From Sipunculus nudus (lineage: Eukaryota > Annelida > Sipuncula > Golfingiida > Sipunculidae): 64,000 bases of DNA. The notes under the pieces were generated by a model. It searched no databases and was not told where the DNA came from. It was given only the letters and a program-made list of their open reading frames with translations. Numbering within the stretch: position 1 is the first letter of the stretch; every line of letters starts with the position of its first letter. Made by a program: the position numbers and the translations under genes. Location: assembly GCA_026874595.1 (NCBI GenBank), contig CM049306.1, forward strand, positions 19,585,019 to 19,649,018, written 5' to 3'. This document shows, in pieces, positions 5,946-51,039 of the stretch.

Positions 5946-7581
5946 AAACAAGGGACCCATGGGTCAAATCGCTCAGCTGAATTTTGGAAAATATTAGTAA
6001 CTGCAAAATATTTTTATTTCTTTTGGTTTTTCATGTTTATTATCATTAGAAAAGCTATGAGAAAACGGCCCTGCTAAAATGAAACTCTGTAAATTATAGA
6101 ATAATGGACATGAGCTAAACCATTTAGTGATGCACCAAGGGAACAAATAGGCCTACGGTAAGTGTTATATAAAAGTAACATTTCATAAACAAATAATGTG
6201 TGAAGGTAATTAAGTTTTTTTTTTAAAAGTTAAATATATGGCAATATGAGTTAATAATTAATCCCACAAAGTTTGACCAATATTCTTAATTTTAATACCA
6301 AGTTAACAGTGTTATTTACACCTAGGCCCCGCCAACTTTAATATATGAATGAAATGCTACAAAGTATTTATATCTTCTTAAATCATGTCATTTAGCACTT
6401 ACAATAGATCCTAATATTTAATCACATTTGAATATTAGGATTAAATTCCTGAAATTTATTTTCTTTAAAAAATTCAAAATTGTCCAAGTCTCATCAAAAA
6501 GAATTTATTTAACATTAAAATTATAAGATTCATCTTGTTTATTAGTCCTGTGTATTGAAGGGGTGGGTGGGGGAGGGGTCTTCGTTGTTACTGCTCATTG
6601 CTGAAAAAAATGTTAATTTTAAGATTCATCCAGTTCATAGTACAGGTCTGTCAACGGAAAGGGGGGGGGGAGAGAAAAAGGCTCCCTGTGGTATGGTATT
6701 AACTGCAGACAGCCTGATCAAGCTCAACTCAGTGGAGAGAGGGCTTGCCCTAGTGATAGGATTGCGTAACATTATGCCAACAGCCTGGGGGGGGGGCATA
6801 GAGAGTTGCACTGAATGACCTACAGTGACCAAAGTGGACTGCTTGACAATGTAAGGGAATACAACAAGAGCCTCCAAAAAAATTCAATAACTAGCCTAAT
6901 TTTGCAGCTTTTATTTTAAATTTCAGATTTTAACAGATTAAATCCTTATGTGCAAATGCTGTGAAAATTAAATCAACAGTACTAACAGGAAAAAAATGTG
7001 CCGTGACCAAAGTTGGGCAAAATTTAAGGTACCAATTTTTTATTTTTGCTAATACTTTAAAAAATTTAAAAGATTTTGATCTGATTTTGGGTATACAATT
7101 TAATTTTGATTAATTAAAGTTATATTACTGGAAAAAATGTCCTTAGTTTTAACATGTTTTGTGTTAAGTGATCAAATATCTTTCATGATTTTTTACAAAA
7201 TGCATTATGTTTGAGCCCATAACTTTTTAAAATTATTTAATACAGACTTAATTTCTTGCATGTACATAGGAACTATATAGAGAAATATATTTTATGGCAA
7301 ATATGAGGAAAAACAGATGAGTGGTTTTGATATTAGGTGGTCCTGAAGTGTGAAAATAGCTTTTCAATAAAAAATTAAGGTTTTTCCTTAATTTCTCAAA
7401 GGTACGAAGTCAGAAGGACCCAGTTTTCGGCTTGGTAGTAGATCTTGGGGACATCTAACATTATGCCGAATTTTGGATTCCTAGGTCTTACGGTTTCAAG
7501 ACGTGCCACATCTACGGACGGACGGACGACGGACAATGGACCACGACTACAGCTCGGATGACTTATAGTCAGCTGAGCTAA
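5946..7581 (+). mobile_element. Family-1 non-autonomous element (Helentron/'pearl'-like), complete copy
   Basis: The head AAACAAGGGACCCATGGGTC contains the 12-bp palindrome GACCCATGGGTC and is followed by GCTCAGCTGA. The tail has an ACGG microsatellite (7513-7533), GGACAATGGACCACGAC, a stem-loop (GCTCGGATGAC-ttata-GTCAGCTGAGC) and a terminal CTAA. The head GCTCAGCTGA is inverted relative to the last bases, giving asymmetric terminal inverted repeats. The interior is non-coding: a G-rich patch with two G10 runs (6661, 6787), then a long AT-rich core containing ggcaaaatttaaggtac and 'cccataactt'. Three further copies are at 22302, 49182 and 54346. A palindromic head, a 3' hairpin and a CTRR-like end are features known for Helitron/Helentron-derived elements; family assignment is inference. 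No Rep/helicase is encoded. Confidence 0.75.
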
Positions 7582-8759
7582 TTATTAAGATATTTTTTTG
7601 CCCTATATAACTGAATGATTCTATAGACTCCATGCTCTTCTAATTCAATATTATACCTGTAAAATGTCCTCATATGAATCTCTCCTGTATTCTTGTATAA
7701 ATTAGCTTAATTATGAACATATAAACATACATATCTAAGTAAATACAAATAAACCTTTATCTTATGAATAATCTATGCATATGCTATATTTCCCTAATGC
7801 TAAAATGTTTTACACTGATTGAAGAAATAAGAACTGATACGTTGGTCCTTTGCCATATTTTTTGTTCCTATAAACTGTAAACCAAAATAACTCACTGGAT
7901 ATAGTTAAAACTGCATGTTACATTTTAAACATAAGCATAACCATGTTGTCTGTGCTTACACAAAATAATAACAATAATAATCAGTTCTCTACCAACAAAT
8001 TGATGAGAGGAAAAATGATAAATAATATGTTAATTATTACATTTTTTGTCAATACAGCCAATAGAGTACTTGGAAACACAAAGGAAGCAGTAAACAGAGC
8101 TCAACATGTGACTGGAATTGGACATAGGTATACAGTCTATAGTGTAGGTGAACATACTGGTTATAGGACCATGTGACATTGAAAATTACTCAGTTCCTCA
8201 AAGGATCATTCACCTGAAACAAAGTTTTTTTGCTGCATCTTCATTTCTGGATGAAGACATCACTCTGATAATAACTTGTAAATGATAAGCTTAATTAGTT
8301 ACTGCATCACAACAATGGCATATTTATATAGAGTGGTTATAGATATGTTATAGGTATAGTTAATGGTATTGTAACAGAAAAAATCCAACTATTATTTTAC
8401 TCACTTCCTTTACAAATACTCTGTTCTATAATCGTTGAGGTCTCAAAAATGTCTCCAAATGTTAGTATATATGAGCAAAATGTCAGTTCTCTAATATTCC
8501 ACAAACTTCTGCTCCAGGATCCTTATATTTATGTTCAGAAAGCTGAAAATATGCTCTACACTAGCTGGAGTATTATTAAACTTTGGATTTTCTATTATTT
8601 TCTGATTTTCCAATTCTGTTTGATATTATTTATACTTTTATACATTTTTAATAAGTTCATGTATATTTCACTAAAGGTTGTTCATTTCAGCATTTCTGCT
8701 ATTTTAAAGATAAGGAATACCTCTACCATGGGTATTCCTAGTTTTCACAGCAACACCAC
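7582..8759. other. AT-rich DNA without a recognised gene
   Basis: Short open frames at 7943-8176 and 8449-8766 translate into Asn/Ile/Phe/Tyr-rich sequence typical of AT-rich non-coding DNA, with no motifs. No family repeats are seen. Confidence 0.5.
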
Positions 8760-11895: not shown

Positions 11896-12827
11896 TACTG
11901 TGGTTGCCTTTATATTGGCGGGGCTGAATTTTTCGCGGTTTTCGTATTTTCAAAAGTTTCATGCAGTTCCAATTTCGCGCTCTCATTAGTCTAGTAGTAT
12001 ATTTTATTATCAAATATGAAACTATGAACTGTAATGACCAAATTATTTCATGACCCGCAGATTTCTCTTTTATCTAGGTCTACTATTTCTCTGTCTGGAT
12101 ATCACATGTTTGAACAGTCACAGACGGCTGAGCTGACAGGTGCGGAAAGCATTGACCCAGCTGGTTGTTATTAGATATGGGTCAAGGCTAATTCTAAAGA
12201 ACTCTTTTTCCACTGTTCTACAGCAATTTGGCCCCATAATGAACTGTGACAATTAAAATATATATTTAAAATTCACGTCATCACTAGCCAATCAAATATC
12301 GTTTTGGCGCATCATGATTTCGGAAGTGACAGAATTAGTCCTTTATACAGTTACAAGGTGGCGCTACCCTAGCGACTACGTTCACTACTTCAGTGGCAAA
12401 TTTTTCATTAACAATAACTTAATACAGCACAATGTGAAAGAATACCTTCTACTAACTATTCTTTTAAGCGGCACTGGATGTCATCTGTCATGTACCAGGG
12501 GTAGGAAAAACTGCCAGGCACACCTACCAGGTCAGCACATCCCTGCAAAGGATCCCGGTTTTTTGCATCTAAGCCAACCGATATAATTTTAAGTAGACCC
12601 TGTTATTCTCCCTGAATCACGTTAAAGTATATGCACCAGGCTCGATGGACATCACTACATAACTAAAAATTAATTTCAACTGTCGCCAACTATCGCAGCT
12701 TCTGAAATTAACGATAATAGCCTGGTATGTATGCATTCAAAACTGCGTGGTTTCAATTTCGCGTTCAGAGAGCGACCGTGAATATTGCAAATTTAAAACC
12801 ACCGCAAATAAGAAGACAACCACAGTA
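11896..12827. mobile_element. TA-flanked inverted-repeat element (MITE-like)
   Basis: The left end reads TACTGTGGTTGCCTTTATAT and the right end, reverse-complemented, reads TACTGTGGTTGTCTTCTTAT. These are inverted ends of about 20-30 bases that continue with weaker similarity (GCGG, TTCGCGG against TTTGCGGTGG). Both sides have a TA dinucleotide, as in Tc1/mariner-type insertions. The element is about 930 bp and has no transposase; the one 90-codon frame inside (12314-12586) shows no motif. Its right end coincides exactly with the breakpoint of the neighbouring tandem duplication. Confidence 0.6.
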
Positions 12828-13784
12828 TATATTGTTATATTTTATATTTATTTAAATAATTTAAAATATTCCACCAGACTGCATTTTCTTTATTTGTTAT
12901 TTAAAAGATTATTTAGTTTTATAACCTTGTTTAGTATTTCACCACACTGGCTCTTTATAATGGCAGGCATTCTGGAAATATTCAAAGTGTATGTAGTCCA
13001 TTATACAAACTATTTTGATGTAAATCATAATATAGGATATGTTCCTGGATTTTAATAACTACAGTTATTTCTGCTATTATAATACTGCAAATATACATTT
13101 CCTATGGAGTTTACACTCAAGATGTGTACAATATTTAGATTTTTATTTGGATCTGGTAAATATTATGTTGATCTGACCAAACCAGTTAAATCTACAAATA
13201 ACATTGTTGTTCTTATTAAATTAAATGTTTGTTTCCAATGATATTGAAAATATATCGACAGAACGAGATATAATTATAATTGTTGTAAACAAAATAAAAG
13301 TCTCTTCACCAATACTTGGTTGGTATCCTCTCGGCAGGAATACGTCTACATGGTCCATATGCACTTGTCTTTGAAAAAGTACAAACAAGTAGCAATACAA
13401 GCAATTTTAAATTTCTCTTGTTAACTCCTTTTTGTTGATTCAATATATGTATGTACTTTGTCAGAAAAAAATTGAAACATTGTATTTAAAATCTTGCAAT
13501 AGTGAAGATGTTCATGTTATAAACACAAGATTTGTAAGTTTTTTTTCTTGTTCCGAGGGATGTCGATGATGAAAAAGAGCGTTATAAATAAATATCTAGT
13601 AATACTGAGACATCCAAAAAAAGAAGAAAAAAAAAAAAGCTCACAGGTTCGATAAAAATATCTTTGCAGCTATTTGATAATAATTTCATTCCCATTTATT
13701 TATTAATATTGTCCTGGGGATTTTGACTTGATCTAGTCAGTTGTATACATAAATCCTGCCATCTCCCAACAACAACAGACAGTA
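12822..13784. repeat. 957-bp tandem duplication, copy 1
   Basis: The segment from acagta (12822) to the next acagta (13779-13784) is repeated directly after it. Its first part (12828-13133) matches 13785-14092 and its second part (13134-13778) matches 17767-18365, with near identity apart from a roughly 50-base extra stretch (about 13588-13640) missing from copy 2. Shared acagta at all three junctions suggests microhomology. AT-rich and non-coding. Confidence 0.85.
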
Positions 13785-14092
13785 TATATTGTTATATTTT
13801 ATATTAAATTAAATAATTTAAAACATTCCACCAGACTGCATTTTCTTTATTTGTTATTTAAAAGATTATTTAGTTTTATAACCTTGTTTAGTATTTCACC
13901 ACACTGGCTCTTTATAATGGCAGGCATTCTGGAAATATTCAAAGTGTATGTAGTCCATTATGCAAACTATTTTGATGTAAATCATAATATAGGATATGTT
14001 CCTGGATTTTAATAACTACAGTTATTTCTGCTATAATATTACTGCAAATATACATTTCCTATGGAGTTTACACTCAAGATGTGTACAATATT
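13779..14092. repeat. 957-bp tandem duplication, copy 2, left part
   Basis: Nearly identical to 12822-13133. The match stops at gtgtacaatatt (14092), where the 3.67-kb insertion begins, and resumes at 17767. Confidence 0.85.
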
Positions 14093-14999: not shown

Positions 15000-15987
15000 A
15001 ACAAGGCCTACAGGCCTAATGCGATCCTGTGCAAAGTTTAGGAGTATGAACGGAGGTTTATTTTTTAAATTTAATATTGATCCTCTTAAGTCCTGCATAT
15101 CTACCTTAGTCATTATGATTTCAGCAAAATGGACTTTTCCGACCTGCAAGTTTCAGACTAGGACATTTTAAAACCAGAATATGGGTAGTCAACAAGCAAC
15201 CATGTGTATCCGCAGAAACCAGAGTTGGACAGGTGAAGTGAGGCATGGATTAAGTGGCAAGAGGTAGAGTGAGGTGTGTTGCAAATTAGCATGGATGTCT
15301 GCAGCTTAAACGTGAATGTAGGTGGTGCCACCTGTCATGAAATCGAGAAAATTGTCCAGGATGTATAAGCCTGCAAAATTTCAGATGGATAAGTCAAACC
15401 ACTGCTGAGATATGAGTGATTTTATCCAAAGGCAGATGAACAGATGGACGCTGTGCATAAGTGGCTGCAGGTGGCACCACCAGTTTTGCCTATGATGAAG
15501 AGCTATATGAGATCTATACACAAGCAAAACATTGGCCCAATCGGTCAAACGGTTCCCGAGATATGAGCTTTGATGTCTGCAGAGAAAACATGAATGTAGG
15601 TGGCGCCACCTGTCATAAAATCGAGAAAGCTGTCCAGGATGTATAAACCTGCAAAATTTCAGGTGGATAAGTCAAACTACTGCTGAGATATGAGTGATTT
15701 TATCCCAAGGCAGATGAACAGATGGACGCTGTGCATAAATGACAGGTGAAGAAAAAGATTTTTAAAGGTTTTTAAGCTTTTTCTCTATATAATCTAAATT
15801 AATGCAGATACCCAATAACAAGCTCCAGGGCACCAAGTCTCACATATGAATAATTCTTAAATGTAATTTCAAGCTGCTAGCTCCGACGGTTTCTGACATA
15901 CAGCCATGGACGGAGGAATGCCAGCCCTGGAAGGCGGACAGCTGACAGCGGACGGACGACGCTGCGCCATTACATAAGCTCACAGGC
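15000..15987 (+). mobile_element. Family-4/5 composite element, compact copy
   Basis: Head AACAAGGCCTACAGGCCTAA at 15000. Tandem units carry GGTGGTGCCACC (15321), GGTGGCACCACC (15470) and GGTGGCGCCACC (15599). The tail module starts near 15745 (ttttaaggtttttaagctt, then ctgctagctccgacggtttc), includes a CGGACGGACGACG stretch and ends GCGCCATTACATAAGCTCAC. Reading the tail backwards gives GCTTATG and GCGCAGC, resembling GCCTAATGCGATCC of the head, so the ends are weakly inverted. It is nearly identical to 667-1140 in its left part. Non-coding. Confidence 0.75.
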
Positions 15988-16011
15988 AAAGATATTAAGC
16001 AAAACCTCATC

Positions 16012-17440
16012 ATGTATCATGTATTTTTATTTACTGTACTCGAGAAATTTGGGTTTGGAAATGATTTTATTAGATGGATAAAGTTAATGCATAATGGGTT
16101 AGAGAGCTGTGTAATGAATAATGGTTTTACTATGGGTTATTTAAAATGGAAAAGGGCACAAGACAAGGCAACCCCATTGCACCATACTTATTTTTATTGG
16201 TTATTGAAATAATGGCAATAAAGGTGCGACAAACAAATAAAGTGAAAGGAATATTGATAGGTGATACAGAAATAAAACAATGTCTATTTGCAGATGACAC
16301 TACATTCTTTTTAAGAGATGTTGACTCAATGATTGAAGTAAAAAAAATATTAAATAAATTTGCAAAGTTTGGTTTGGACAAAAACCAAAGATTAAATATG
16401 GGGTATTTGTAAGTGAAAAAGAAAATGGTGGTATAAATATGCCAGACATTAATGCCATATTGAAAAGCCAAAGAATTATGTGGATGATCCGAATGAAAAA
16501 GTTATCAAATGCAAAATGTATAGTCATACCTAATATGTATCTAAGAAATATTGGCGGTGTAGAAAAATTTAATGCCAATTTAGATTTTTTTAATATGAAA
16601 AGAAAAATATCTAAATTTTATTCACACTGTTTAAAAATTTGGGATAAAATTGCTACATTTTGGCCTACGAATCCACAACAAATCTTATTACAACCCGTTT
16701 GGAACAACAAATTTGTCAAAATAGCAGGAAAATCAGTATACTCTAGATTTTTTTATAACATTGGAATTAAATGCATCCATGATTTATTCGGAAAAATTTC
16801 ACCTTGAAAATAAACTCTATAAAAAATACCTGATGTTCTGGTATTCAATACAACAAGCGGTACCAAAGGAGTGGAAATTAGTTCTAAAATCAGAGAATAT
16901 GAGTGATATTTACATAAAAGACACTTTATTATTGAATAATAAAGCTCTAGACTAGAAAGTCAATTACCGCAAGGTGTATAATATGGTTATAAATGACCAT
17001 ACAAATGAGCCGGCTAATAGAATTAAACTAGAGGAAAGCTTACCTCAGGTATTTTCCTGGAAAGATGCAATTGATTATATATATAAAACCACTATGGATA
17101 TGTTTCTGAGGCAATTTCAGTTTAGAATTATTCATAATATATTGTCTGTGAATGTAAAGCTATACATATGGAAAATAACTGATACCAATATGTGTTCATA
17201 TTGAGAAACAGAAACAGCAGTGCATTTATTCTGTGACTGTGACACAGCTAAACCATTTTATAGACAAATTAGTCAGTAGGCAGAATACGCTGGAATAAAA
17301 ATGCCTGCACTGACTCCGCTTCTTTTATATACAGGATGTGACAAAGACAATGCCAGTAAACGTATAATAGATTTGTTATTATTGCTACAAAAATATGTAA
17401 TTTTTAAAAATAAAGAATTTTCCATCTTTCACTGTATATA
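16012..17440 (+). pseudogene. LINE reverse transcriptase remnant (L1/Tx1-like), 5'-truncated and broken
   Basis: Pieces of a LINE ORF2 lie in order in shifting frames. LEKFGFGNDFIRWIKLMHNG (from about 16042) precedes the palm block GTRQGNPIAPYLF (16155 on) and the catalytic FADD motif (16287-16298). After KFGLDKNQ the sequence jumps to NGGINMPDINAILKSQRIMW, which in L1/Tx1-type proteins lies far downstream, so the thumb and connection region is deleted. It continues through a C-terminal part ending in a zinc-knuckle-like CSY-stop-ETETAVHLFCDCD (17193-17244), where a TGA replaces the second cysteine. At least three frame changes and several stops make it non-functional. The endonuclease half is absent. 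Clade assignment rests on the GG-(L/I)-x-(L/M)-P block and tail motif and is moderately sure. Confidence 0.8.
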
Positions 17441-17669: not shown

Positions 17670-17670
<1 letters not shown>

Positions 17671-17719: not shown

Positions 17720-17722
<3 letters not shown>

Positions 17723-17766: not shown

Positions 17767-18371
17767 ATATTTAGATTTTTATTTGGATCTGGTAAATATT
17801 ATGTTGATCTGACCAAACCAGTTAAATCTACAAATAACATTGTTGTTCTTATTAAATTAAATGTTTGTTTCCAATGATATTGAAAATATATCAACAGAAC
17901 GAGATATAATTATAATTGTTGTAAACAAAATAAAAGTCTCTTCACCAATACTTGGTTGGTATCCTCTCGGCAGGAATACGTCTACATGGTCCATATGCAC
18001 TTGTCTTTGAAAAAGTACAAACAAGTAGCAATACAAGCAATTTTAAATTTCTCTTGTTAACTCCTTTTTGTTGATTCAATATATGTATGTACTTTGTCAG
18101 AAAAAAATTGAAACATTGTATTTAAAATCTTGCAATAGTGAAGATGTTCATGTTATAAACACAAGATTTGTAAGTTTTTTTTCTTGTTCCGAGGGATGTC
18201 GATGATGAAAAAGAGCGTTATAAAAGCTCACAGGTTCGATAAAAATATCTTTGCAGCTATTTGATAATAATTTCATTCCCATTTATTTATTAATATTGTC
18301 CTGGGGATTTTGACTTGATCTAGTCAGTTGTATACATAAATCCTGCCATCTCCCAACAACAACAGACAGTA
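17767..18371. repeat. 957-bp tandem duplication, copy 2, right part
   Basis: Matches 13134-13784 nearly base for base (atttttatttggatctgg onward), except that the segment ataaatatctagtaatactg and the A-rich stretch after it (about 13588-13640) are absent. It ends at acagta (18366-18371), after which the sequence is unique. Confidence 0.85.
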
Positions 18372-18539
18372 AACAAATCATATCAGCCTCTTGCTAGCAT
18401 CCATACATGTAAATAATAATGGAAAATTGATAATTTAAGTAACTGTCTTAAGATATATTTAACCATACTACCATGGGTTCTATTTAACTTGTACAATTGC
18501 TGTCATCAGTCAGTCTCAAACAAAGAGAAAATTAAAATG

Positions 18540-18837
18540 TATAAAAATTAGAAAAAATACAGGTAGCACCACGGGTCTCTCAGGCAACTGATGAAAATGT
18601 CCATGATTAACATGTTAAACAAATTTCCAATTTTCAATAATTTCTTGGATGTCAAAACAAGCCTCATACCTGTGATATTGAACATAGGTCACAGTGACCT
18701 AATTTCAGATTTTGATGGAGATTTTTCAAGGACCTCCCTGGATCAGAAGTTAAATGTTTCTAGGTAAAATGGTAACCATTTGTGTCCTACTAATGAACAG
18801 AAAGAGATTTATCACTTGACAAAGTCAGCTGAGCTAA
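18540..18837 (+). mobile_element. Family-2 element, 5'-truncated copy
   Basis: Carries one family-2 monomer: a diverged GGTAGCACCACGGG at about 18564, then 'aactgatga', 'gatttttcaaggacctccctgg' and the terminal GTCAGCTGAGCTAA ending at 18837. The head and other monomers are missing. The ACGG microsatellite and the 5' arm of the terminal stem are largely lost. Confidence 0.6.
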
Positions 18838-21349
18838 AATAGCCGAATTATAAATAGAGCACAACTGGAGTACATTTCACATATAGTTCTATATAGGGAT
18901 AAATAATGGAAAACATTTGCAGAATAGAAGGGTGTCTGTGTAATACCTAATTAGCAGTGCATATAATCAATATCAGTGACAGAACTGCAAATGTTTTTGC
19001 AGCCCACCCCTGGTGCATCCATGGTACCTTGCAATAAATGATAGTGAGAAAGTAATTGACAAAAAAAGTTGTTCTTTATAACCCCTGGCTAGGCCACACA
19101 TGGACAAGAGGTCTATTTACTATAATTCATATGGGCATGTTGTCATAATATGGATCACAAATTCTCCTCTGCATGCAGGGGCAAGCAGACTTGACTAATC
19201 CATTTTGCTTGATGGTTGTGACATCATAGATCTATCTGTAGATGTTCTGCACCCTGAGTCTATGAGCCTGGTTCCTATGATAGCCAAAAATCAATTATCT
19301 GCAATTCTTCTTTCCATGATAGTTTCTTTGAAATATAATTTTTCTTGCATTCCAGAAATGATTTCTAACTGAAATTCTAATCAGCAGACACACAGTCTTT
19401 CATGCAGCTAAATCAATCAGCTCCAAAACCGGTTGGCCACACATGATATATTTTTTTGGTGGAGATAATTATATTTAATGGCTTATATTTCTGTTCAAAA
19501 TGTTTTAAATGGCAGAACATTATAAGCACTCTGGAATTATAAAATGAAACATTTTATTCAAAATACTTTTGTAATTATCAGAAAAGTACTGTGAAAACTT
19601 CATTTTGAAAATAATTCCAATTAACATAGTATTCATTTAATTACCCTTGCTCAAAGGAACCCTTGTATAAGGTTTAAAGGCTAAAGTACTTGTTCTTATT
19701 TACTGACATATTTGAATGAAAAAAGAAAAGACTATTTTGGATCACAGAAAGTGGTGACATATGCAGCTGATACTCATATGTCAGTTATGTGTTAGTGTGT
19801 CTGCAAAATATTGTGAAAATTAAAAAAAAAACATAAAAAGAAGGGGGCAGGATGGACATATGCACATGGACTGTTAGTCTTTTTGAAGGAATTTCTGACT
19901 ACACTGAAGGAAGCACAAAGTTCCATCCATGGCCAACTAGAAATTAGCCTAGTTTTGTTTATTCAATTAATTTAATTTAAAGAACAAAAATAAATTGTTG
20001 TGTTTCTCAGCAGACCATCTGTTTTCAAGGAGTAGGACACATGACTACTTGATTCCAGTGTAGCTCTCCCAGTTTGAAACTGCTAGTACCTCCCAGGAGA
20101 ATGGAGAAATCTGACAGAAACTCCAGACCCCTCGGCATTTAAAACCCCATAATTATCTAGAAGGCCTATTAGAAACATATCATTCCTACCACATGGTCAT
20201 GTTCATCCTGATTCAACAGAGTGCCATGAACAGACTACAGACCTATGCTCTAAATTAAGATGTTTTGAAATATAAAAAGTTAAATTTTCAGGTATTCTCA
20301 ATGAAGATGATATTACTTTCTGCAAGGCCAAGAAGGCCTATAGCTAGCTTGGGTGTGATTCAGTTCTCCATCATGATGTCACAGTGAAGCACAGCACAGG
20401 TAATGGTAAAGGACATTCGACAACTTCTTTTTCCCCCAAGTTTCAGTTCTGGTAGGGTCTGAATTTAAAAATTAAAGATGAGCCACAAGGTTTTAGTGCT
20501 TTTCCCGACAAGATCTGAAATTTTCCGTGACAACCTGCAGAGACTTCAACACCATTTACCACAGCCCACACATCATTCCCCTTCCCAGAAGGCATTTCAC
20601 CAACTACTTAACCTGAATTCCGCTGGAATTATCTATCAATATTTACTAACCAAGGACATGCTAAACAATTTTCGCTGGAGTCTTTGAACAACATACAATA
20701 TCAGTGTTCAACATACTGAGTTGAAAAAAGAAATTCTTCTAACATAAAGCATAGTCTTTCTGTGCTGATTTATTCAAGGTCTATATAAGCCATGTCTGAA
20801 CTTTTGACCCCTAGTAATGGAACTGAAGATGCAGCCATCAAGCCCTCTCTCACCTACAGCTTGATACTTTTATTGCATTCTCAAGAAAAACCTATGCAAG
20901 CTTTACAATGCTGCTTTTTGTCTAAGGAATAGGCTATTTGTATGCTTTGAGCAAGGTGTTGGATATGGCAATGAAATATCTTTACCACTGGAGTGTTGTC
21001 ATAAATTAATGCACACTGGTACCACCTAAATCCATATAGTGTTAGCTGCGTGGATTTATGCATGGAGTCATTCATAATTTGATTCAACTGCATGGATAAA
21101 TATGTTTGTTACACTGGTGCTAATTTTTAGGTTCAATCAAACAACTATTTAAAATATATTAATAAAGATCTCCTGCATCAATTTTCACACCTATGCATCC
21201 TGCACAATGTATTAATTCATACATGTATTCCTAATTAAATTTAATTTGATATCATTATGCTTAATATATATTTTTTTTATCATTATTAATTAAATTCTAA
21301 AAATACAAATTCAAATACAAACAAGGAGATAACGAACAAATTTACTATA
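18838..21349. other. AT-rich DNA, one short interspersed repeat, no gene
   Basis: Apart from the repeat at 19634-19755, no family copies are seen. A 69-codon frame at 20478-20687 follows pyrimidine-rich sequence and translates to His/Gln/Leu-rich peptide, but it lacks a credible donor and shows no motif. Confidence 0.4.
19634..19755 (+). repeat. Interspersed repeat, copy 1 (family 8)
   Basis: Matches 57239-57350 in order and orientation: 'aaggaacccttg', ggtttaaaggctaaagt, gttcttatttactga, then 'aaaagac.att' and cacagaaagt. Diverged, non-coding, boundaries approximate. Confidence 0.6.
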
Positions 21350-22301
21350 AACTAGAATATGGGTAGTCGGCAAGCGACTATTACGTGTATCCACTGAAAT
21401 CAGAGTGAGACGGAAGAAGTGGGGTATATACATTGAATTGAGTTCATGGCGAGGGGAAATAGAGTGAGATGTGTTGCATATTAGCATGGATGTCTGCCAT
21501 GTACACATGATTATAGGTGGCACCATCTGTTATTTGAAAAAGAAAACTATCCAAAATGAATACATATGCAAAATTTCAGGTGGATAAGTCAAACCAGTCC
21601 TGAGATATTGGAATGAATGTCTGCAGGGTAACCATGAATGTAGGTGCCCTACCTGCCGCTAATTTGAGAAAAATATCCAGGATGTGTACACATGCATAAT
21701 TTAGGCAGATAAGTCAAACTACTGCCAAGATATGAGTGATTTTATCCCACAGAAGACAAACAGACAGATGCTGTGCAAAAACGGTTGCAGATGGTGCCAC
21801 CAGTTTTTGCGTATGATGAAGAGCTATGTGAGATCTATGCACATGCAAAATTTCTAGAGGATACGTCAATTAAACCAGTCTTGAGATATTTGTGAGGTAG
21901 TGCCACCTGTCATAAAATCAAGAAAGCTATCCAGGATGTATACACATGCAAAATTTTAGGCAGATAAGTCAAACCACTGCCAAGATATGAGTGGTTTTAT
22001 CACAAGGCAGACATAATATGATATATGTATGATATAAAGCTATCCAAGAGCTACACTCATGCAAAATTTCAGCATGATTGGTCGAACAAATCTGAAGATA
22101 TGTGGGTTAATATGTGAAAACAGACACATAGATGGACGCACTGCAGAAAGGAAAGGTTTGAGGTCGATGCAAAATGGTTAGGTACCAGGCCACATGTGAC
22201 CTGATTATGGGGTCAAGTTTTGGAAAAATAAGTCCAGTGGTCTCAGAGAAGTTCTCCAGAGACGAACACGGCGGTGGCGGAACCCTGTCAAAAACATATA
22301 A
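21350..22301 (+). repeat. Family-4 array, third copy
   Basis: Begins with actagaatatgggtagtcgg, as at 841 and 15175, but lacks the AGGCCT head. Units carry GGTGGCACCATC (21516), a decayed form near 21634, ATGGTGCCACC (21794) and GGTAGTGCCACC (21897). It ends in the 'agttctccagagacgaacacggcggtggcgg' tail, also seen at 1930-1980. It abuts the family-1 head at 22302. Confidence 0.7.
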
Positions 22302-32960: not shown

Positions 32961-32964
32961 TGCA

Positions 32965-35050: not shown

Positions 35051-36430
35051 AACAAGACCTACAGGCCTAATGCAAACCTGTGCAAAGTTTAGGAGTATGG
35101 ATGTTCATTTATTAAAATTTAATATTGATCCTCTCATGTCCTGCATATCTACCTTACTCATTATGGTTTCAGCCAAATGGACATTTTGGACCTGCACTTT
35201 CGGACTAGGACATTATAAAACTAGGATGTATCAGTCAGGATATTTTGGATATGTTCTTTTTTCCCTATAAAATCTAAGAACAAGTCCCTATTTTAGCCTT
35301 GGTATTGAGTCACACCTATTAATGCATCCTGGCAATGGAGGCTCAGCTTTCCCCTGGTCAAGGGTAACTAATGTGCCACATGTAACCCCACCACTGGCTC
35401 TTACAGATTGAAACTTACAACTGGCTCTTACAGATTGAAACTTACGACTGGCTCTTACAGACTGAAACTTGACATGACCTGTTGGCAAATCTGAAATGGT
35501 TGGCAGTCTGCCAAAGTTATTTATAGATACAGAGCATAACTTGACCTATTGTAAAATCTGACACAGTTGGCAGGTTATAGACGTCTAGGCGATGTGTCTA
35601 GATACATCGTCTAGATGTCTAGACTGTATCTGGACACCAGGCAGAGCCAAGTCAAGTGCCATGGTGATGTCTGGACTGCACCTGGGTGCACTGATTGACC
35701 TCTTTACTTAATTGACAAGTTGAAACTTGCCATGCTGTCAAATCTGTTTTCAAACACTGAAAGCCTTTTTCAATTGGCCACACTGCTTTTTTAAAACTGC
35801 ATTTACCCAATCTATTCTTATAAAACTGACAGAACAATACCATAGAACAATTCTTGTAATGTTTAAACCAATCAGCTTAACAGTTTCTTAAAAAAACAGT
35901 GTATAAGCTAGAAGAGTCTAAACTTACATTTTTGCTTGTAAAAAACAGATCAATGTAGGTAGCACCACTAACAACTCAATTTCAGATATGACTCATGTGA
36001 CAAACATTGGCATAAAATTTGGTGATGACAGCTCCAGCTGTTTCTGAGATTTTAAGTTTAGTATGCTTATTTGCACAGATGACTAAGTTAAACCTCCTCT
36101 AACTCAGCCAAAAATCACCAAACTGGAGCTATGTAAACAAATTTGCAAGAGATTGTTCTAGGGATCATGTACGGTGAAATATTGGACAATTTGGCTTGAC
36201 AGTTCAGATAAGATCTTTAAAGGTTTTTAAGCTTTTTCTCTATAAAATCTAAATTAATGCAGATACCCAATAATAAGCTCTAGGGCCCCAAGTTTCAAAT
36301 GTGACTAATTCTTACATGTAATTTAGAGCTGCTAGCTCCGACGGTTTCTGACTTTCAGCCATGCATGGCGGATGGCCAGCCATGGACAGCGGACGACAGA
36401 AGGACAATGCCAAGCAATCGCATAAGGGAC
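35051..36430 (+). mobile_element. Family-4/5 composite element, long copy
   Basis: Head AACAAGACCTACAGGCCTAA, then cctgtgcaaagtttaggag. Modules follow in the same order as at 47497: a 27-bp minisatellite (35393-35473), 'ggcagtctgccaaagttat', a palindrome (35579-35620), a GTAGGTAGCACCACT unit (35953) and the AGCCAAAAATCACC unit (36112). The closing module ttaaaggtttttaagctttt (36213 on) runs through ctgctagctccgacggtttc and a CGGA-rich stretch to 'caatcgcataag'. Non-coding. Confidence 0.65.
35393..35473. repeat. 27-bp minisatellite, three units
   Basis: ACTGGCTCTTACAGATTGAA starts at 35393, 35420 and 35447, exactly 27 bases apart. The minus frame gives a nine-residue periodic peptide (KFQSVRASx), a by-product of the period. 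Confidence 0.9.
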
Positions 36431-36684
36431 CTAAAATTTTACACCAAACTGTGAATAACTTTTTTGACCTTTGACCTCCGGACCCCAAAATCGATAGGGA
36501 TCTTCCATAATTGATGGTTAATACATATTTCAGGTTTGAACTCAATCCTTCAAATCTAACTGGAGTTATCATCCGGAAAAGAATTTGTGGACGGACGGAT
36601 GGACAGACAGACAGACGGCAGGACAGCTAGACAGACGGACAGGTCTATTACTATAGGGCACCCGCTTTTTAAGTGGGGCCCTAA
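36431..36684 (+). mobile_element. Family-3 element, 5'-truncated copy
   Basis: Contains ttgacctttgacctccgg at 36468 and the 'actggagttatcatccggaaa' phrase of family-3 type-A monomers. A GGAC/ACAG-rich microsatellite (36590-36645) and the terminal hairpin GGGCACCCGCTTTTTAAGTG / GGGCCCTAA (36656-36684) follow. The same tail closes 47410. It directly follows a family-4 tail. Confidence 0.65.
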
Positions 36685-36754
36685 TTAGTTGAACGGAAAC
36701 AAGGTGCAGTGCATGTTTCATTTGGAGAGACCATAAACAGAAGGTGACAATCAG

Positions 36755-37694
36755 AACAAGTGACCCATGGGTCATGATGCTCAGCCGACTGACATGTCGA
36801 TAATATGTCCTTGCACAGGCATCTAATTAAGATAGGTGGCAAAATTGTTCATGTATATTAGCTTAAGTTCATCAAGACCCATAAGCACAACAAGTTTGAT
36901 GAAAATCCAACCAGCCTTTCATGAGGATTCTGGCAGTTTGTATTTTGCATTATTTCTGGGGTGCTCAAACATACCCCAAAACTCTGAGAATATAGGTCAA
37001 TGTGACCCAATTTCAGGTTTCTGGGGAGAACTTTTGAGGAACTCTCAGGATGTCAAGGTAGAAGATTCTGGGCCCCATGGTTATGATTTGTGCCCTACTT
37101 TGGTATCAAATTTTCAATTAAACTGGGGAGTACTTCTGAGCCCCATATAGCTCAAACAATATGGGTAACAGAGACCTAATTTCAGGTTTCCAAGGAGACT
37201 TTTCATAGGCCTCCCAGCATGTTAAGAAAAAAGATTCTATGTCTAGTTGTTACAATTTTGTTCCCTGTTAAAAGATGACCGCATCTTTAAATCTCAAAAA
37301 TAGATTAAAAAAAGGAAAAAATCGAAAAAATACAGGTGGCACCACCAGTCTGCAGAAACTGATGAAACACTCCATGAAAAATATCCATGCAAAGAATAAT
37401 GGTGACCAATGCAGTAGTTGTTCAGATACTTTCTGGGGGGAGGTGGGGGGGGGGGGGGTACTTGGAAGCCCCATAGCTCACAGGTTTTGGTTAACAGAGA
37501 TGTAATTCAAAGTTTCCAAAGAGACTTTTCATGGACCTCTCTGGATGTACAGTGAGAAGATTCCAGGTCCAGCAGTTACCATTTGTTCCTTGTTAACAGA
37601 CAGCAGCCAGATGGCTGGATGGCAGGACGGCTGGACGGACAATGGAAAAAGAGTGATCGCTATAGCTCAGATGACTAACAGTCAGCTGAGCTAA
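36755..37694 (+). mobile_element. Family-2 element, complete copy with about 2.5 monomers
   Basis: Head AACAAGTGACCCATGGGTCA (14-bp palindrome TGACCCATGGGTCA) followed by 'gctcagccgactgac'. Monomers of about 335 bp contain 'gggtaacagagacctaatttcagg' near 37160, GGTGGCACCACCAG at 37336 and a G14 run at 37445-37458. The tail has the ggacggctggacggacaatg microsatellite and the stem GCTCAGATGACTAACAGTCAGCTGAGC, ending CTAA at 37694. Non-coding. Confidence 0.75.
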
Positions 37695-39809: not shown

Positions 39810-40452
39810 AAACAAGTGACCCAGGGGTCATGACGCACAGCTATCTAGGAAGACATTCACAAAATGAATTTTATCATCTGAATGCCAAATATTGTAGGTG
39901 GTATCCTAAATCAACTGAACCATAGCTCACAGGTTATGGGTAACAGAGACCTAAGTTCAAGTTTCCAAGGAGATTTTTCATGGACCTCCCTGGATGTCAA
40001 GTATGAAGATTCTAGGTGCAATGGTTACAATCTGTACCCTGTAAAACCGACAACCACATCTTTGAAGGTCTCAAAAATAGAGAAAAAATGCATAAAAATT
40101 CGAAAAAATCAAGGTGACTTCACCAGTCTGCAGGAACTGATGAAACACTCCATGATGAATATGCATGCAAAGAATCATGGTGATTAATGCATTAGCTGTT
40201 CAGATACTGGAGCTTTTGTGTCCTAAATTAATTATTCTGGGGGGTACATCTGAGCCCAATATCTCAAAGAAAATAGGTTACAGAGACCTTATTTCAGGTT
40301 TCCATGGAGATTTTTCATGGACCTCTCTGGATTTCATGTTAGAAGATTCCAGGTCAAGCAGTTACAATTTGTGCCTGATTAATGGTCAGACGGACGGACA
40401 ACGGACAAAGACTGATCATTATAGCTCAGATGACATACAGTCAGCTGAGCAA
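39810..40452 (+). mobile_element. Family-2 element, short copy with two monomers
   Basis: Head AAACAAGTGACCCAGGGGTC, one base off the perfect palindrome. Monomer marks 'taacagagaccta' occur near 39940 and 40273, with 'ctgcaggaactgatgaaacac' between them. Tail: gacggacggacaacggacaa, GCTCAGATGACATACAGTCAGCTGAGC. The last bases are CAAA instead of CTAA, a single-base change at the end. Non-coding. Confidence 0.75.
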
Positions 40453-41225
40453 ATAATGAGGTAAAAATTAATGCAACTTAAAATATGACATGTGTGACAA
40501 AGATCAAGGAGCGAATGACACTATTTTCCAAAATCTGATTCCTGCAAAAACTGTTCAGAACTTCTGATTTAACAGAACTCCATAATGATGAACATGAATG
40601 CACTCAAAGTGTGCAGACCTGGCCTATTGTCCAACCTTCTGCAAAGTTTGTGGATATTGGTTCAGTAGTATTTGCTTACCTAATCCTGTTAAAAGATCAA
40701 CAAACAAATGAATGGGGTTGAAAATATAACCTCCTTTGTGGAGATAATGAGGTTATGTAGGGTAACAGAGGGAGTGAAAAGAAAGCTCTCAATGAATAAA
40801 GAATTGATTCTTGAAGAATGAAGATCAACCACAAGGAAGAACAAGTGCATGGGATGATCACTGAATGGGGGATGAAGTGTCCAACCTTGTATTTTCTTTT
40901 GTAGTATTCTGTAGAATTCTCTGACTAGGTTGATTAATAAGCTACTTAAGTGAGGGTGCTGAACCCTTTTAAACACAGCAGAGTCTGTCTAATTGGACCA
41001 ATAAAATACCATTGTCACGACTAATTAATCATCAAACTCTTTTTCTTCCATAATTACCAAAAAAGAAACTCTGATACCAGATCTGATGAGCTGACAAAAT
41101 AAGGATTGTACCTATAGTTGAGGTGATACATCCTGCAATATATATCACAAATATACCGCTGCATTCTAATGATATTTTATATATCCCAATATTTAAATAT
41201 TGGATGAAGGAACAATTATATCATC
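40453..41225. other. Unassigned AT-rich DNA
   Basis: No family repeat and no convincing exon. A 95-codon minus frame (40689-40976) is Phe/Ile/Leu/Ser-rich and shows no motif. Confidence 0.4.
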
Positions 41226-43652: not shown

Positions 43653-45477
43653 AAACAAGTGACCCATGGGTCATGACGCTCAGCTGACTGGGAAGAGATT
43701 TGCCAAAGGAAATTTTATCATCTGAATGGTAGTTTATACCCATTCAACTGAAGCATCAAACAGATTAACCAACAGGCCAAGATTGTGACTGTATTTATAT
43801 ATCTCAAAAATTGAGAAAAAATGCATAAACTTTAAAAAAAATACCAGTTTGCAGAAACTAATAAAAACACTTAATCGTCAATATCCATGCAAAGAATGAT
43901 GGTGAATTCTGCATTAGTTGTTCAGATACTTCAGCTTTTGTATCAAATTTTCAATTATTCTGAGGGATACTTTGGAGTCCTATAGCTTGAAGGATATGGG
44001 TAACAGAGACCTAATTTCAGGTTTCCACAGATACTTTTCATGGGCCTCCTTGCATGACAAGAATGAAGATTCTAAGTCCTGTTGTTACAATTTGTGCCAC
44101 GGTAACAGATGACAGCATCCTTAAAGGTCTCAAAAATAGAGAAAAAATTTGTCAAACAACCTGAACAAATACAGGTGGTGCCACCAGTTTGCAGAAACTG
44201 ATGAAACACTCCATGATCAATATCGATACAAACAATTATGGTGATCGCTGCATTAGTTGTTCAGATACTTCAGCTTTTGTATCAAATTGTCCATTATTCT
44301 GAGGAATACTTCGGAGACCTTTAGCTCAAAGGATATGGGTAACAGAGACCTAATTTCAGGTTTCCATGTAGACTTTTCATGGGTCTCCCTGTGTATCAAG
44401 AATGAAGATTCTAGGTCCAGTCGTAACAATTTGTACCCTGTTGACATAACTACATCCTTAAAGGTCTCAAAAATAGAGAAAAAAAATTGTAATTCATGAT
44501 CAATATGTATGCAAAAAATAATGACCATCAGTGATGTAGTTAATGAGATATTCAAGTTTTTGTATGAAATTTTTGACTATTCTGGGGGGGGGGGGTAATT
44601 TGGGGCCCCATAGCTTGAAAGATATTGGTAACAGAGACCTTATTTCTGGTTTCCATGGAGACTTTTCATAGGTCTCTCAGTGTGTCAAGAATTAAGATTC
44701 TAGGTCCAGTCTTTACGATTTGTGCCCTGTTAACAGATGTTCACATTTTTATAGGTCTCAAAAATAGAGAAAAAAATTCGTAAAAAATCGAAAAATACAG
44801 GTGGCGCCACCAGTCTGCAGACACTGATGAAACATCTCATGATAAATATGTTTGCAAAAAATAATGACCATCAGTGATGTTGTTAATGAGATATTGAAGT
44901 TTTTGTATGAAATTTTTGACTATTCTGGGGGGGGGGGTACTTTGGGGCCCCATAGCTTGAAGGATATGGGTAACAGAGACCTAATTTCTGGTTTCCATGG
45001 AGACTTTACATAGGTCTCTCAGTGTGTCAAGAATTAAGATTCTAGATCCAGACTTTATGATTTGTGCCCTGTTAACAGATGTTCACATTTTTAAAGATCT
45101 CAAAAATAGAAAAAAAATTGTAAAAAATAAAAAAATACAGGTGGCGCCACCAGTCTGCAAGAAGTGATGCAACTTCTCATCACTAATATGTATGCAAAAA
45201 ATCATGACCATTGATGATGTAGTTAATGAGATATTGAAGTTTTTGTATGAAATTTTTAAATATTCTGGGGGGTACTTTGAGGCCCCATAGCTCAAAGGAT
45301 ATGGGTAACAGAGATCTAATTTCTGGTTTCCAAGGAGATTTTTCATGGACCTCTCAGAATGTAAAGTTACAAGATTATAGTTCCAGCGGTTACGATTTGT
45401 GCCAGGTTAACGGACAGACGGACGACGGACAAAGAGTGATCGCTATAGCTCAGATGACTTACAGTCAGCTGAGCTAA
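43653..45477 (+). mobile_element. Family-2 element, long copy with five monomers
   Basis: Head AAACAAGTGACCCATGGGTC followed by GCTCAGCTGACTG, which is inverted at the tail (13 bases). The monomer mark 'taacagaga' occurs at 44001, 44340, 44629, 44971 and 45306, spacings of 339, 289, 342 and 335; the short one reflects an internal deletion that removed the GGTGGCGCCACC block. That block survives at 44174 (GGTGGTGCCACC), 44801 and 45140 (perfect palindromes). G12 and G11 runs begin at 44584 and 44927. Tail: ACGG microsatellite (45412-45430) and stem GCTCAGATGAC-ttaca-GTCAGCTGAGC, ending CTAA at 45477. Non-coding. Confidence 0.8.
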
Positions 45478-46534: not shown

Positions 46535-47410
46535 ACTAGGGACCCATGGATCTCAACGCTCCGCTTAATTTGTCTATAAGGGTGTTAATGAGCTTTTTCA
46601 ACATGGGTCCTGTGATCAGTTTGAAGCCAATCTGTCTAACCAAACTGGAGTTAATTCTCATCCATAAACTAATTTGTGAATGGATGGGCCCTGTGACCTT
46701 AACCTTTGACCTACAGTGACCCCAAAATCAAAAGGATATACTTCCCCTATTGGCAGGTGCGCCACATGTGGAAGATGGAAGGTTTGCGATGAAAAGTTTG
46801 GCTTAAAATGCATCCACAATCATTCTCAAGTAGATGGTCCTGTGACCTTGACCTTTGATCTCATGACCCATGAATCAACAGTTCTTACTTTGGTGGTGGG
46901 CCATATATAAGTCAAATTTGAATCCAATTTTCAGTCCAAACTGGTGTTTAATCATCTGGAAACTAATATTTGTAAAGATGGCCCTGTGACCTTGATCTTT
47001 GACCTTGTGACCCAAAATCCATAAATGTCTTCCAATATTGGCAGGTGAGCAATATCTGGAAGATGAAAGGTTTGGGATGAAAAGTTTGACTTGAAATACA
47101 TCCACAATCATTCTCAAGTAGAGGTCCTGTGACCTTGACCTTAGACCTCAAAATCAAAAGGGTTCTTACATTATTGGTGGGTCATATATACAAGTCAAGA
47201 TTGAAACCAATATGTCAATCCAAACTAGAATTATCATCTGGAAACATATATGTGGACAAATGGCCCACATGACCTTGACCTTTGACCTTGTGACCCCAAA
47301 ACCCAAAAGTTATTATTAGGAAACAATTTTGATGAACATATAGAAAGACGAACAGATGGACAGATAGGGTGATTAATATTGGGCATCCGCTTATTTAAGC
47401 GGGGTCCTAA
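46535..47410 (+). mobile_element. Family-3 element with alternating monomers and nuclear-receptor-like half-sites
   Basis: Head ACTAGGGACCCATGGATCTC followed by ACGCTCCGCTTAA. The tail hairpin CCGCTTATTTAAGCGG is followed by GGTCCTAA (end 47410); head CCGCTTAA and tail TTAAGCGG are inverted. Between them, gtgaccttgacctttgacc-type blocks begin near 46692, 46841, 46985, 47128 and 47268, spaced 140-149 bases. The sequence between blocks alternates between two types: A ('ccaaactggagtt..tcatctggaaac') and B ('ggaagatgaaaggttt..gatgaaaagttt'). Two further copies are at 36431 and 57942. Non-coding. Confidence 0.75.
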
Positions 47411-47496
47411 TTAAACATCCTGGGTTTTAGGACACAGTTGAAACCACAGTTGCAAATCTGATAGTATCAATATGATTTGGCAATCTCAAAATAAAG

Positions 47497-49181
47497 AACA
47501 AGCCTACAGGCCTAATGCAAACCTGTGCAATAGGATATACATCAGGTATTATGCTTCCATGCTAGACCGTTACTTTTAAAGTACAGGTGTAACATGTATA
47601 TGTGCAATGTAAGCACTGCACATTTTGAACCCAAGCACATGCACCAATTACACAAATATCACTGCTGAAATACTGGCATTGGTGCATATAACACAAAAAT
47701 GACTGTATGTGGCACCACCAGTCATGTTTACGACCAAGCCATCAAAAATGTATGGACATGCAAAATTTCAGGCATATACTTCAAACTGATCTTCAGCTAT
47801 GTGCACATGCAGAGCCATGAAACAATTGTAGGTGGCACCACAAGTCTTGTATATAACAAAACTATCCAAGATGTATCAACAAGTATAATTTGAAGCTGAT
47901 ATGTCAAATCACTCCCAAAGAATAAGCAGGAGCATACACTGCAAAAATTATTGTTGGTGGCGCCTCCTGTCTTCCATATGACAAAGCTATCTGATATGAA
48001 TAAATATGCCCAATTTCTGGCTGAAATATCAAATCCCTCCTGATAAATAAGCAGGGACATACACTGTGCAAAAATTACTGTATGTGGCGCCACCAGTCTT
48101 GTATACGGCAAATCTATCCGACATGTATACATATGCATAATTTCAGGCTGATTTATCACATCCCTCCTGAGAATTAAGCAGGTATATACACTGTAAGTCA
48201 TTGTAGGTGTCAACACCAGTTTTGTGTACGAGAAAAGTTGCATCAAAGCTGCATGGACAGGTCAAAATATCAGGCCATTACATCAAACTACTCTTGATTG
48301 AGTCAGGTGCACTGGGCTGACCAGGCATAGGTGGGAAAGGCAGTTGCCCTAATGAAGCAGAACAAATTGCTAGCTTCAGCTACTCCACTGAGTGAACTCT
48401 TGACCTGCACCTGGCTGGACTGAGTGAACTCTTGACCTGTACCCGGCTTGACTGAGTGAACTCTTGACTTGTTGCCTAATCTGATACAGCTGGCAGTCTG
48501 ATCCAGACTGACCTTTGGCCTGTTGCCATATCTAAAATAGCTGGCTGTCTGCCAAGCTATTTATAGATACAGAAACATCCTTGGCCTGTTGGTGAATCTG
48601 TTAACACATACTGAAAGACTTTGGCTACGATGCCTTTTTTCCCAAGACACATTCATAAGATTTTTTTATCAAAATATTAAGAATAATAAAAAAAGCAGTC
48701 ATTTCGCTGTTAAAGGTCAAATAATCCTGCCAAAAATCATTTAAGTAAACTTGAACAAAGGCCTCCTAAGAATCATTTTTGTGCAATGTTACAGAAGTTG
48801 AAACAACAGTTTTGCAGAAGAAGAATACTGCAGCCCTCAGTTTGTAATAAATTTTTTGAAAAAAATCAACGAACCAAAGTTATTCTTATACAACTGAAAG
48901 AACCCTACCCTAGGATAATACCTGTAAAAAAAAATAAACATTTTTAAGCTGATAGAGGCTAAAATTATGAGGTTTTTGCCTGAAAAAAAAACAGCTCAAT
49001 GTAGATTGCCCCACAAAAACTGCAATTTCAAATATGAGTCATGAGCCCAACATAGCACAAAACTTGATGATGCTAGCTCCTGTTGTTTCTGAGATTATGT
49101 TAGTATGCCTACTTGGCCAAATGACTAATTTAAAATACTGTAACTAGATCCATCAAAATTCATCAAACCCAAACCATTGAA
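47497..49181 (+). repeat. Family-4/5 composite with 125-bp tandem array
   Basis: Head AACAAGCCTACAGGCCTAAT, then five units of about 125 bp starting at 47705, 47828, 47953, 48080 and 48203. Each opens with a form of GTAGGTGGCGCCACCAG (GTATGTGGCGCCACCAG at 48080 is among the best preserved). Next come the 'gagtgaactcttgacctg' units (48395-48480), ggcagtctg with 'ccaagctatttatagatac', an AGCCAAAAATCAT-like unit (48722) and a 'gctagctcctgttgtttctgag' module (49073). The element then runs into the family-1 head at 49182. The 149-codon minus frame (47797-48246) is a by-product. Confidence 0.7.
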
Positions 49182-51039
49182 AAACAAGGGACCCATGGGT
49201 CACTGTGCTCAGCTGAAGTTGACCTTGAAGGTAAAAATCTAAAATATCAAATGAAGATAAAGTGTAAGAGGAAGAGGTAATAAAGGCTATGGTTGGTTTA
49301 TATGATTGGTTTGTATTGATGAGCAAGAAATTGTTGCAAATAATATTTTTGTGACCTGACCATGTGTTTCCTAATGTTAAAACTGAAGCATTTGAGCAGT
49401 TTGTGAACAAATGATCTGTACTATTACCATGATCATTAATTGGCTTTTTTATAAACTGTTACACATTTGTTCAACTGAATCTATTTTTTGTATAATATAT
49501 ATTATTAAATATATATGTATTTTTTTAATGTATACAGTTGAAATATAACTAATTAACAACATAAAACTGGGCAAACAAAGCCTGATCTCAAATTTTGCTG
49601 AGGCAGGAAAATAATGAACAAATGTTTGTATTAAATCCTCATTTTTTTATCACATCAATTTTTTTTAAATTTAAGTTTATATTTCTATACATTTCCAATA
49701 TAACATATATATCTGAATATAAAAGTTGATTCATAATTCTCAACTGCATCATCATTAATCTCAATCTTGTCAGATAGCACCACATCACGCATACAAATGT
49801 TTATTTATTTTTTACCACAAAAATTATCTTTTAAATCTGCAAAACAATAAATATCTAAAAATAATACTTGATTTAGATTTCACAATTTTTAATTGTGTCT
49901 TTATTTATCCATAATGTGCTTCATATTTTATAAATTTAAGCATACTGATGGGTTCAATTATATTTGTTAAAATCATTTAAAAGAAAACTGATTTCTTTAA
50001 AAATGCTACATTACACAACATTGCATCTTCTGGATTACACCTTGAATTACTTTTTCAAGGGGAGTTTTTGCATATCAGAGTGGAAACAGCATTACAATTA
50101 AGGAGATACAGTGAAAACAATAACAATTACTGCATAACGCTTGGTGGGTTGGGTTTGCCGGGAGGGGGGGGGGTGATTGGGGTGGTGATATGAGAATAAC
50201 TGTACACCTGTCACAGCAGGGGATCTCCCCCAGTGACTGTAACAAATCAGAAACCCTGGCATAGCTGACTTCCAGTGACCTGGAGAGGGACCCTGCATCT
50301 GTAATCTGTAATCAAAGCAAATGACTACAAAAGAGCCTCAAGAAAAAATTCAATAACTAACCTACTTTTCAAGCTTTTATTTTAAGATTTAAACAAATTA
50401 AATATTTATGTTTACATGCTGTGAAAATTAAATCAATGGTACTAACAGAAAAAAAACGTGCCATGGTCAAAGTTTGGCAAAATTTAAGGTAGTGATTTTA
50501 TTTTTATGCTAATGACTTAAAAAATTTACAAAATTCAGATATAATTTTGGGTAAACAATTGAATCTTAATTTAGTTATATACTTGGGGAAATAGACTCTA
50601 TTTTTTAAATTTTCCATGTTAAGTGAGTGAATATTTTTCCTGATTTTTTACAAAGTCCATTATGTTTGGGCCCATAACTTAAAGAATTTATACTTAACAG
50701 ACTTAATTTCTGGGATGAACATAGGAACTATATAGAGGAATATTTATGGTAAATATGAGGAAAAACAGATGAGCAGTCCTGAAGTGTGAAAATAGGATTT
50801 TAATAAAAAAAATTGAGGTTTTTTCTTAATTTCTTAAAGGAACAAAGTCACAAAGACCCAGTTTTCGGCTTGGTAGGAGTTCTTGGGGACATCTAACATT
50901 ATGCCAAATTTTGGATTCCTAGGTCTCACGGTTTCAAAATGTACCACATCTACGGACGGACGGACGAACAGACAGACAGACAGACGACGGACAATGGACC
51001 ACGACTATAGCTCAGATGACTTATAGTCAGCTGAGCTAA
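49182..51039 (+). mobile_element. Family-1 element, complete copy
   Basis: Head AAACAAGGGACCCATGGGTC, then 'actgtgctcagctgaa'. A G10 run lies at 50164-50173 and the AT-rich core at about 50330-50940. Tail: microsatellite tacggacggacggacgaaca with ACAG repeats, ggacaatggaccacgactat, stem GCTCAGATGAC-ttata-GTCAGCTGAGC, CTAA ending at 51039. Non-coding. Confidence 0.75.

Follow-up and report, generated by a model that had tools for sequence, protein, structure and literature searches.

The 64,000-nt stretch of the genome of Sipunculus nudus analysed here (assembly GCA_026874595.1, contig CM049306.1, positions 19,585,019 to 19,649,018 of the forward strand; hereafter the window) contains 18 recognised copies of repeated elements (17 if the neighbours E1 and E2 are one element), numbered E1 to E18 and read on the minus strand. 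Together they occupy 23,802 of the 64,000 bases (37%), as computed on 16 intervals with E1 and E2, and likewise E14 and E15, merged. Divergence between copies is mostly 10-30%, and about 8% between E1 and E4. The copies fall into three end-families, F1, F3 and F4. F1 and F3 are very probably old copies of Helentron-associated interspersed elements (HINEs), i.e. non-autonomous Helentrons, which are rolling-circle transposons of the HUH type, and F4 is most likely of the same kind. This kind of element is already known; new to the catalogue are the HINE families, one chimeric element and one nested insertion.

Family F1 comprises two groups with common ends and different cores. F1a consists of E3 (5946-7581) and E7 (22302-25450, core of about two units), both with both ends, of E15 (49182-51039), which lies within E14, and of E17 (54346-56690), whose 5' end was not found. 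To F1b belong the two-ended copies E10 (36755-37694), E11 (39810-40453) and E12 (43653-45477, tandem core of about 340 bp), the 3' part E16 (51934-52345) and the fragment E5 (18490-18837), which has a 5' subterminal inverted repeat (subTIR) without the complementary inverted repeat (IR). F3 is represented by E13 (46535-47415, both ends), by E9 (36440-36690), a 5' part with hairpin and microsatellite, and by E18 (57943-58725), an F3-related tandem core of 146-bp units with ends not resolved. F4 contains E1, the F4A element E4 (15000-15985, 5' end decayed or not resolved), the F4A fragment E6 (21320-22300, ends not resolved), and two F4B elements, E8 (35051-36432) and E14 (47496-51748); the latter is split by E15 and has tandem cores of 127 bp and 32 bp. 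Borders are approximate, an end being decayed or missing, in E4, E5, E6, E8, E9, E14 (5' end), E16, E17 and E18. Tandem arrays in the cores are of 127, 146, 277 and about 340 bp, and the F1a core is made of one or two long units.

The words that define the ends are far more frequent in the window than expected. The 12-bp palindrome GACCCATGGGTC has nine matches with at most one mismatch (0.06 expected), a number reached by none of 100 shuffled sequences. A first-pass annotation of this DNA had listed eight heads, all of which are present within 1-2 bases; the ninth match, at 46541, is the head of the F3 element whose border lies at 46535. The word GCTCAGCTGAC, again with at most one mismatch, occurs 21 times (0.42 expected) and stands behind the palindrome at five of the eight heads, those at 22302, 39810 and 54346 being more decayed. 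All five tails of that annotation do carry CTAA at the base indicated, the stem of the one at 7581 with one mismatch, and to them we added F1-type ends at 3652, 40453 and 18837, the last with the subTIR only. End sites were taken from a plain mismatch scan, which misses the indel-bearing tail at 3652. The F4 head, AGGCCTACAGGCCT, was found with 0-1 mismatch at 671, 15004, 35055 and 47500.

Read on the minus strand, F1 has the order TTA-GCTCAGCTGAC-(4-5 nt)-GTCATCTGAGC-GTCC repeats-core-GTCAGCTGAGC-(about 5 nt)-GACCCATGGGTC-CTTGTTT. In E15, for example, the 5' terminus (51010-51039) holds TTA, the 5' subTIR GCTCAGCTGAC, 5 nt and the complementary IR GTCATCTGAGC, with a hairpin z of -5.6, while the 3' terminus (49182-49217) holds the 3' subTIR, the palindrome GACCCATGGGTC and CTTGTTT. 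The subTIR, 3 nt from the end and followed after 4-5 nt by its complementary IR, is present at seven of eight F1-type 5' ends, the exception being E5, and the 3' subTIR matches its partner with 0-2 mismatches in five of the six two-ended F1 copies and with three in E11. With DNA folding parameters, the 5' hairpin of F1 gave z from -5.3 to -6.4 at five of seven ends and -2.2 and -3.2 at the other two; two F3 ends gave -2.6 and -3.8. A 3' palindrome, in some cases imperfect, was recognised in 13 of the 18 copies, and none in E2, E5, E6, E9 and E18.

Published HINEs have a left (5') module of 5' subTIR, complementary IR and microsatellite, and a right (3') module in which a 3' subTIR is followed by a palindrome marking the 3' end (PMC7492417; PMC4067079). 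Since microsatellite and subTIR/IR hairpin sit together at what the first-pass annotation took for the tail, this tail is the 5' end of the minus strand; the polarity proposed there has to be reversed, and the terminal CTAA, thought to be a CTRR-type end, is the complement of 5' TTAG. In this polarity the layout of F1 and F3 is the HINE order, in which, as published for Cg_HINE and DINE-1, the microsatellite precedes the core, and the architecture of asymmetric terminal inverted repeats (ATIRs) and tandem cores described earlier is confirmed in both families. In the opposite polarity the copies would be canonical Helitrons ending in a hairpin and CTAA and inserted between A and T, which we consider very improbable. 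CTAA does fit CTRR and stands behind the hairpin in six of the seven hairpin-bearing F1 tails (E11 has CAAA), but it directly adjoins the stem, and in the published structure about 11 bp separate the hairpin from the end (PMC4067079); moreover, the opposite end has no initial TC, the microsatellite would be at the wrong end and the junction is A^A. Canonical Helitrons (Helitron1) begin with 5' TC, have a hairpin some 11 bp before their 3' CTRR and sit at A^T sites; the elements of the window have 5' TTAG, 3' CTTGTTT and T^T.

The pearl elements of bivalves, compared here by description only, carry an ACGG microsatellite according to the first-pass annotation. These repeat-containing elements (Gaffney et al. 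2003, as cited in PMC7492417) have been re-categorised as non-autonomous Helentrons (PMC7492417). The Cg_HINEs of Crassostrea gigas, compared by description and not by sequence, resemble the HINEs of the window in a 5' subTIR of 11-12 bp, a complementary IR 1-12 bp away, a GTCY/GTCC microsatellite, a satellite-like tandem core, a 3' subTIR, a palindrome, the absence of target-site duplications and TT or T-rich sites; some of them contain two arrays in a row, and related and unrelated end-families occur in one genome, as here (PMC7492417). They differ in that both orientations are published, whereas the recognised copies in the window have only one (PMC7492417). DINE-1, HINE-Mo and Helentrons share with the HINEs of the window a subTIR separated from the 5' end by 2-4 nt, a palindrome near the 3' end, T-rich sites, no target modification and a variable number of terminal T's; in HINE-Mo, however, the 3' subTIR lies 38-60 bp and the palindrome 8-35 bp from the 3' end, both being closer in the window (PMC4067079). 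ATIRs with palindromes at both ends, which we found in F1 and F3, are also published for Helitron2 (PMC4067079), but the microsatellite, the tandem core and the T^T site match HINEs, and it is improbable that the elements are of the Helitron2 type. The Helitron2-like FoHeli elements of Fusarium, again compared by description only, have ATIR-type termini like the HINEs of the window and differ in preferring TNAT sites with A or T as the next base (the passages of the paper vary; PMC5148889).

The annotation had expected insertion without target duplication, which is borne out at one nested site and at seven two-ended elements. E15 is nested in E14, and the uninterrupted site can be seen in four sister units: one in E8 (near 36140), unit 2 of E14 and two units of E2. 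When the flanks of E14 are joined, no duplication is seen. Joining at the element borders gives TTTAGGTT^TTCAATGG on the element strand, a T^T junction (A^A on the plus strand) in which the T's may be assigned to the two sides in several ways. For the seven two-ended elements, the best direct repeats at the borders averaged 3.9 nt (range 2-5), compared to 4.0 nt (up to 6) in 42 mismatched pairs, in a coarse test that allowed ±4 nt of play. There is no sign of a fixed-length target duplication in the seven elements or at the nested site. This bears on a further alternative, that the copies are cut-and-paste miniature inverted-repeat transposable elements (MITEs) with short terminal inverted repeats. 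An 11-bp inverted pair at the ends is what a MITE would show; this pair, however, is asymmetric: at one end it lies close to the tip, at the other it lies inwards of the palindrome. A DDE-type MITE should also leave a duplication of fixed length, which did not exceed the control in the seven elements and was not seen at the nested site. We therefore regard a MITE origin as scarcely credible. Comparison of the 250-nt flanks gave 13 matches, all in overlapping stretches, element ends or transposon bodies, so that the insertions look separate. At 22300-22302 (gap 1) and 36432-36440 (gap 7), with borders that are partly approximate, an element adjoins one from another family in head-to-tail arrangement, which gives the impression that insertion favoured element ends.

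Several observations weigh against assigning all these copies to HINEs. The 3' palindromes fold weakly, with z below -2 in only two of 13, and since the 3' modules were located by a palindrome search, their count is partly circular. In F4, none of the three 5' ends tested (E4, E8 and E14) has a significant hairpin (z from -1.1 to +1.9). At the nested site, the joined flanks lack 2-3 nt relative to the sister units, and these units, on which the single empty site rests, are 69-76% identical to the E14 flanks or to one another. In addition, a free search for the cut preferred 49168/51032 (score 367) over the element borders 49181/51040 (348), which shifts the left border outwards by 13 nt and places the right one 8 nt within E15. 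Neither cut implies a duplication, and the borders used here are those of the element ends; the site of E15 is therefore not fixed to the base, and of the T/T or A/T insertion expected earlier, T^T stands at one nested site, but without such exactness. Finally, no autonomous Rep/helicase was seen in the window, in which a Pfam scan covered 15 of the 81 open frames (at least 65 aa, mostly outside the elements). Above the cut-off it returned RVT_1 alone, and below it two matches, one of them to seven residues of the PriA helicase zinc ribbon.

For F4, the annotation had proposed the same layout as in the other families. The 3' palindrome AGGCCTACAGGCCT where the end is kept, the GTCC-type microsatellite and the tandem cores agree with this, but a significant 5' hairpin is missing at the three ends tested, and a subTIR is visible only in E14, as a 10-bp match. 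The 5' ends of F4 may be decayed or misplaced. F4 most likely represents a lineage of the HINE kind that has decayed or is a variant, and at most it can be said to work like a HINE; the earlier proposal of several Helentron-derived non-autonomous lineages is thus supported for F1 and F3, and F4 is only probably one of them. The annotation also left a choice between convergent and inherited ends. Judging from the sequences, the ends of F1a, F1b and F3 are common by visible homology, while the resemblance of F4 to them is limited to some of the layout and to the terminal CTTGTT. F3 had been described as unrelated in sequence to F1; it does have a different subTIR (CCGCTTAA), but its palindrome is related to that of F1, with two mismatches over ACAAGNGACCCATGGGTC, and the family is present with both ends in E13.

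E1 and E2 (667-3652) join parts of different families. The stretch begins with an F4-type 3' end (667), followed by an F4A core of 277-bp units and an F4B core, and terminates in an F1a-type 5' end (3652). In E2, homology to F4B extends in pieces to about 3501, and the F1a 5' module follows at 3577-3652 with 91-93% identity. E2 is a chimera with switched ends that either abuts E1 or forms one chimeric element with it. Bypass of an element end or composite transposition would be expected to yield such a chimera, which is comparable to the composites of FoHeli, for which an origin by self-insertion has been proposed (PMC5148889). A palindromic box, GGTGGCGCCACC, occurs 27 times between 993 and 56799 with at most two mismatches (0.36 expected). 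Most of these sites lie in the cores of F1b, F4A and F4B, which are otherwise unrelated, and a few lie outside; the box may be a common binding site or a replication feature.

What is seen directly is the layout of F1 and F3, the hairpins at nine of their 5' ends, the nested insertion without duplication and the exchange of ends in E2. By comparison with what is known of Helitrons and Helentrons, a Rep/helicase supplied by an autonomous Helentron at another locus would nick the element strand at the hairpin of 5' TTA and subTIR. The nicked strand would be peeled off during re-copying, peeling would stop at the 3' palindrome and CTTGTTT, and the freed strand would be joined into a T-rich site between two T's, leaving no target duplication. 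One study reports that a single donor strand is used and that the donor is double-stranded (PMC5876387); another reports that only single-stranded DNA is cleaved, possible sources of which are lagging-strand replication, as in IS608, or supercoiling (PMC4778049).

All 18 recognised copies (17 of 17 if E1 and E2 are one), from three end-families and spread over 667-58725, have the same polarity. This unexpected pattern, which the first-pass annotation does not mention, was noticed post hoc and in one window. Polarity was read from the layout in F1 and F3, from the side of palindrome and microsatellite in F4, and from homology in fragments, as in E18 by its homology to E13. If the copies are independent, p is 8e-6 for 18/18 and 1.5e-5 for 17/17; after merging neighbours within 200 bp into 11 clusters it is 1e-3. 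A self-BLAST at 1e-8 gave 129 plus-strand pairs and no minus-strand pair. With a loose search, plus rows numbered 454 (counting the self match) and minus rows nine; the latter are palindromes, an inverted repeat near 63 kb and one 44-bp match between E12 and E14, the sole dissent on polarity. GGAC-type words, chosen after the tails had been seen, occur 46 times on the plus strand and once on the minus strand, and ends of ACAAG plus palindrome number nine on the plus strand versus two unrelated ones on the minus strand, with a mean of 0.28 per strand in 50 simulated sequences.

T-richness of the target strand was rejected as a cause of the shared orientation: outside the elements AA/(AA+TT) is 0.516 and the corresponding AAAA ratio 0.498, and T-runs of 5 or 6 bases are commoner on the plus strand, opposite to the observed polarity. 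Base skew outside the elements is slight (C 7048 versus G 6482; A 13536 versus T 13129), and the GC skew changes sign along the window, with extremes of -0.12 at 28-32 kb and +0.10 at 16-20 kb. Segmental duplication was rejected as well, the 250-nt flanks being homologous only at overlaps, element ends and transposon bodies. Nor was a host gene that would give a direction of transcription recognised among the 15 scanned frames. It is nevertheless highly likely that the orientation stems from chance, from local duplication or from selection, for example where the copies are part of a gene or of a unistrand PIWI-interacting RNA cluster, and not from a bias in targeting, as the pattern is post hoc and from one window, several elements have a neighbour within 200 bp and the 11 clusters give only p = 1e-3. 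This explanation has to contend with flanks that show no homology marking duplicated blocks, with copies mostly 10-30% apart (E1/E4 about 8%), and with the lack of a recognised gene in the frames scanned. By analogy with IS200/IS605, we also entertain the rather doubtful idea that Helentron orientation would be set by the local direction of replication, through capture of single-stranded DNA as lagging-strand template, or by transcription, so that HINE polarity would record the direction of forks or of transcription over tens of kb in an animal genome. Replication-directed orientation has been described for these bacterial elements and, in the excerpt available, not for Helitrons (PMC5371812); among the matches listed in a search on Helitron or Helentron orientation or replication, the titles and abstract openings did not mention local orientation coherence of Helitrons. 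If the pattern were true genome-wide, eukaryotic rolling-circle transposons would mark the direction of replication or transcription like some bacterial HUH transposons, and whether the Helentron target is single-stranded DNA at forks could be tested from assemblies alone.

The tail pattern of F1 had no match in viral contigs or in the genome contigs searched, and the F4 head pattern none in viral contigs. One viral and two Rhizobium matches to the F1 head pattern were rejected as chance, with GC of 0.62-0.70 and no subTIR word. Other repeats accompany the HINE-like copies. A fragment that resembles a long interspersed nuclear element and contains a domain of reverse transcriptase (Pfam RVT_1, E 3e-8) lies on the plus strand at 16122-16409, some 150 bp past E4 on its 5' side, and later frames up to about 17200 look related to it, with no Pfam match. 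At 12822-14092, direct repeats of 314 bp (98% identity) surround about 640 bp, the inner part of which is copied at 17767-18371 (92%); these repeats look like those of a long-terminal-repeat retrotransposon or its miniature (TRIM) form, with polarity not resolved. A local direct duplication outside the elements links 32962-33682 to 34122-34901 with 70-80% identity, and a GGATGGGTCCC-like unit forms arrays at 62947-63181, with an inverted counterpart at a distance of about 100 bp.

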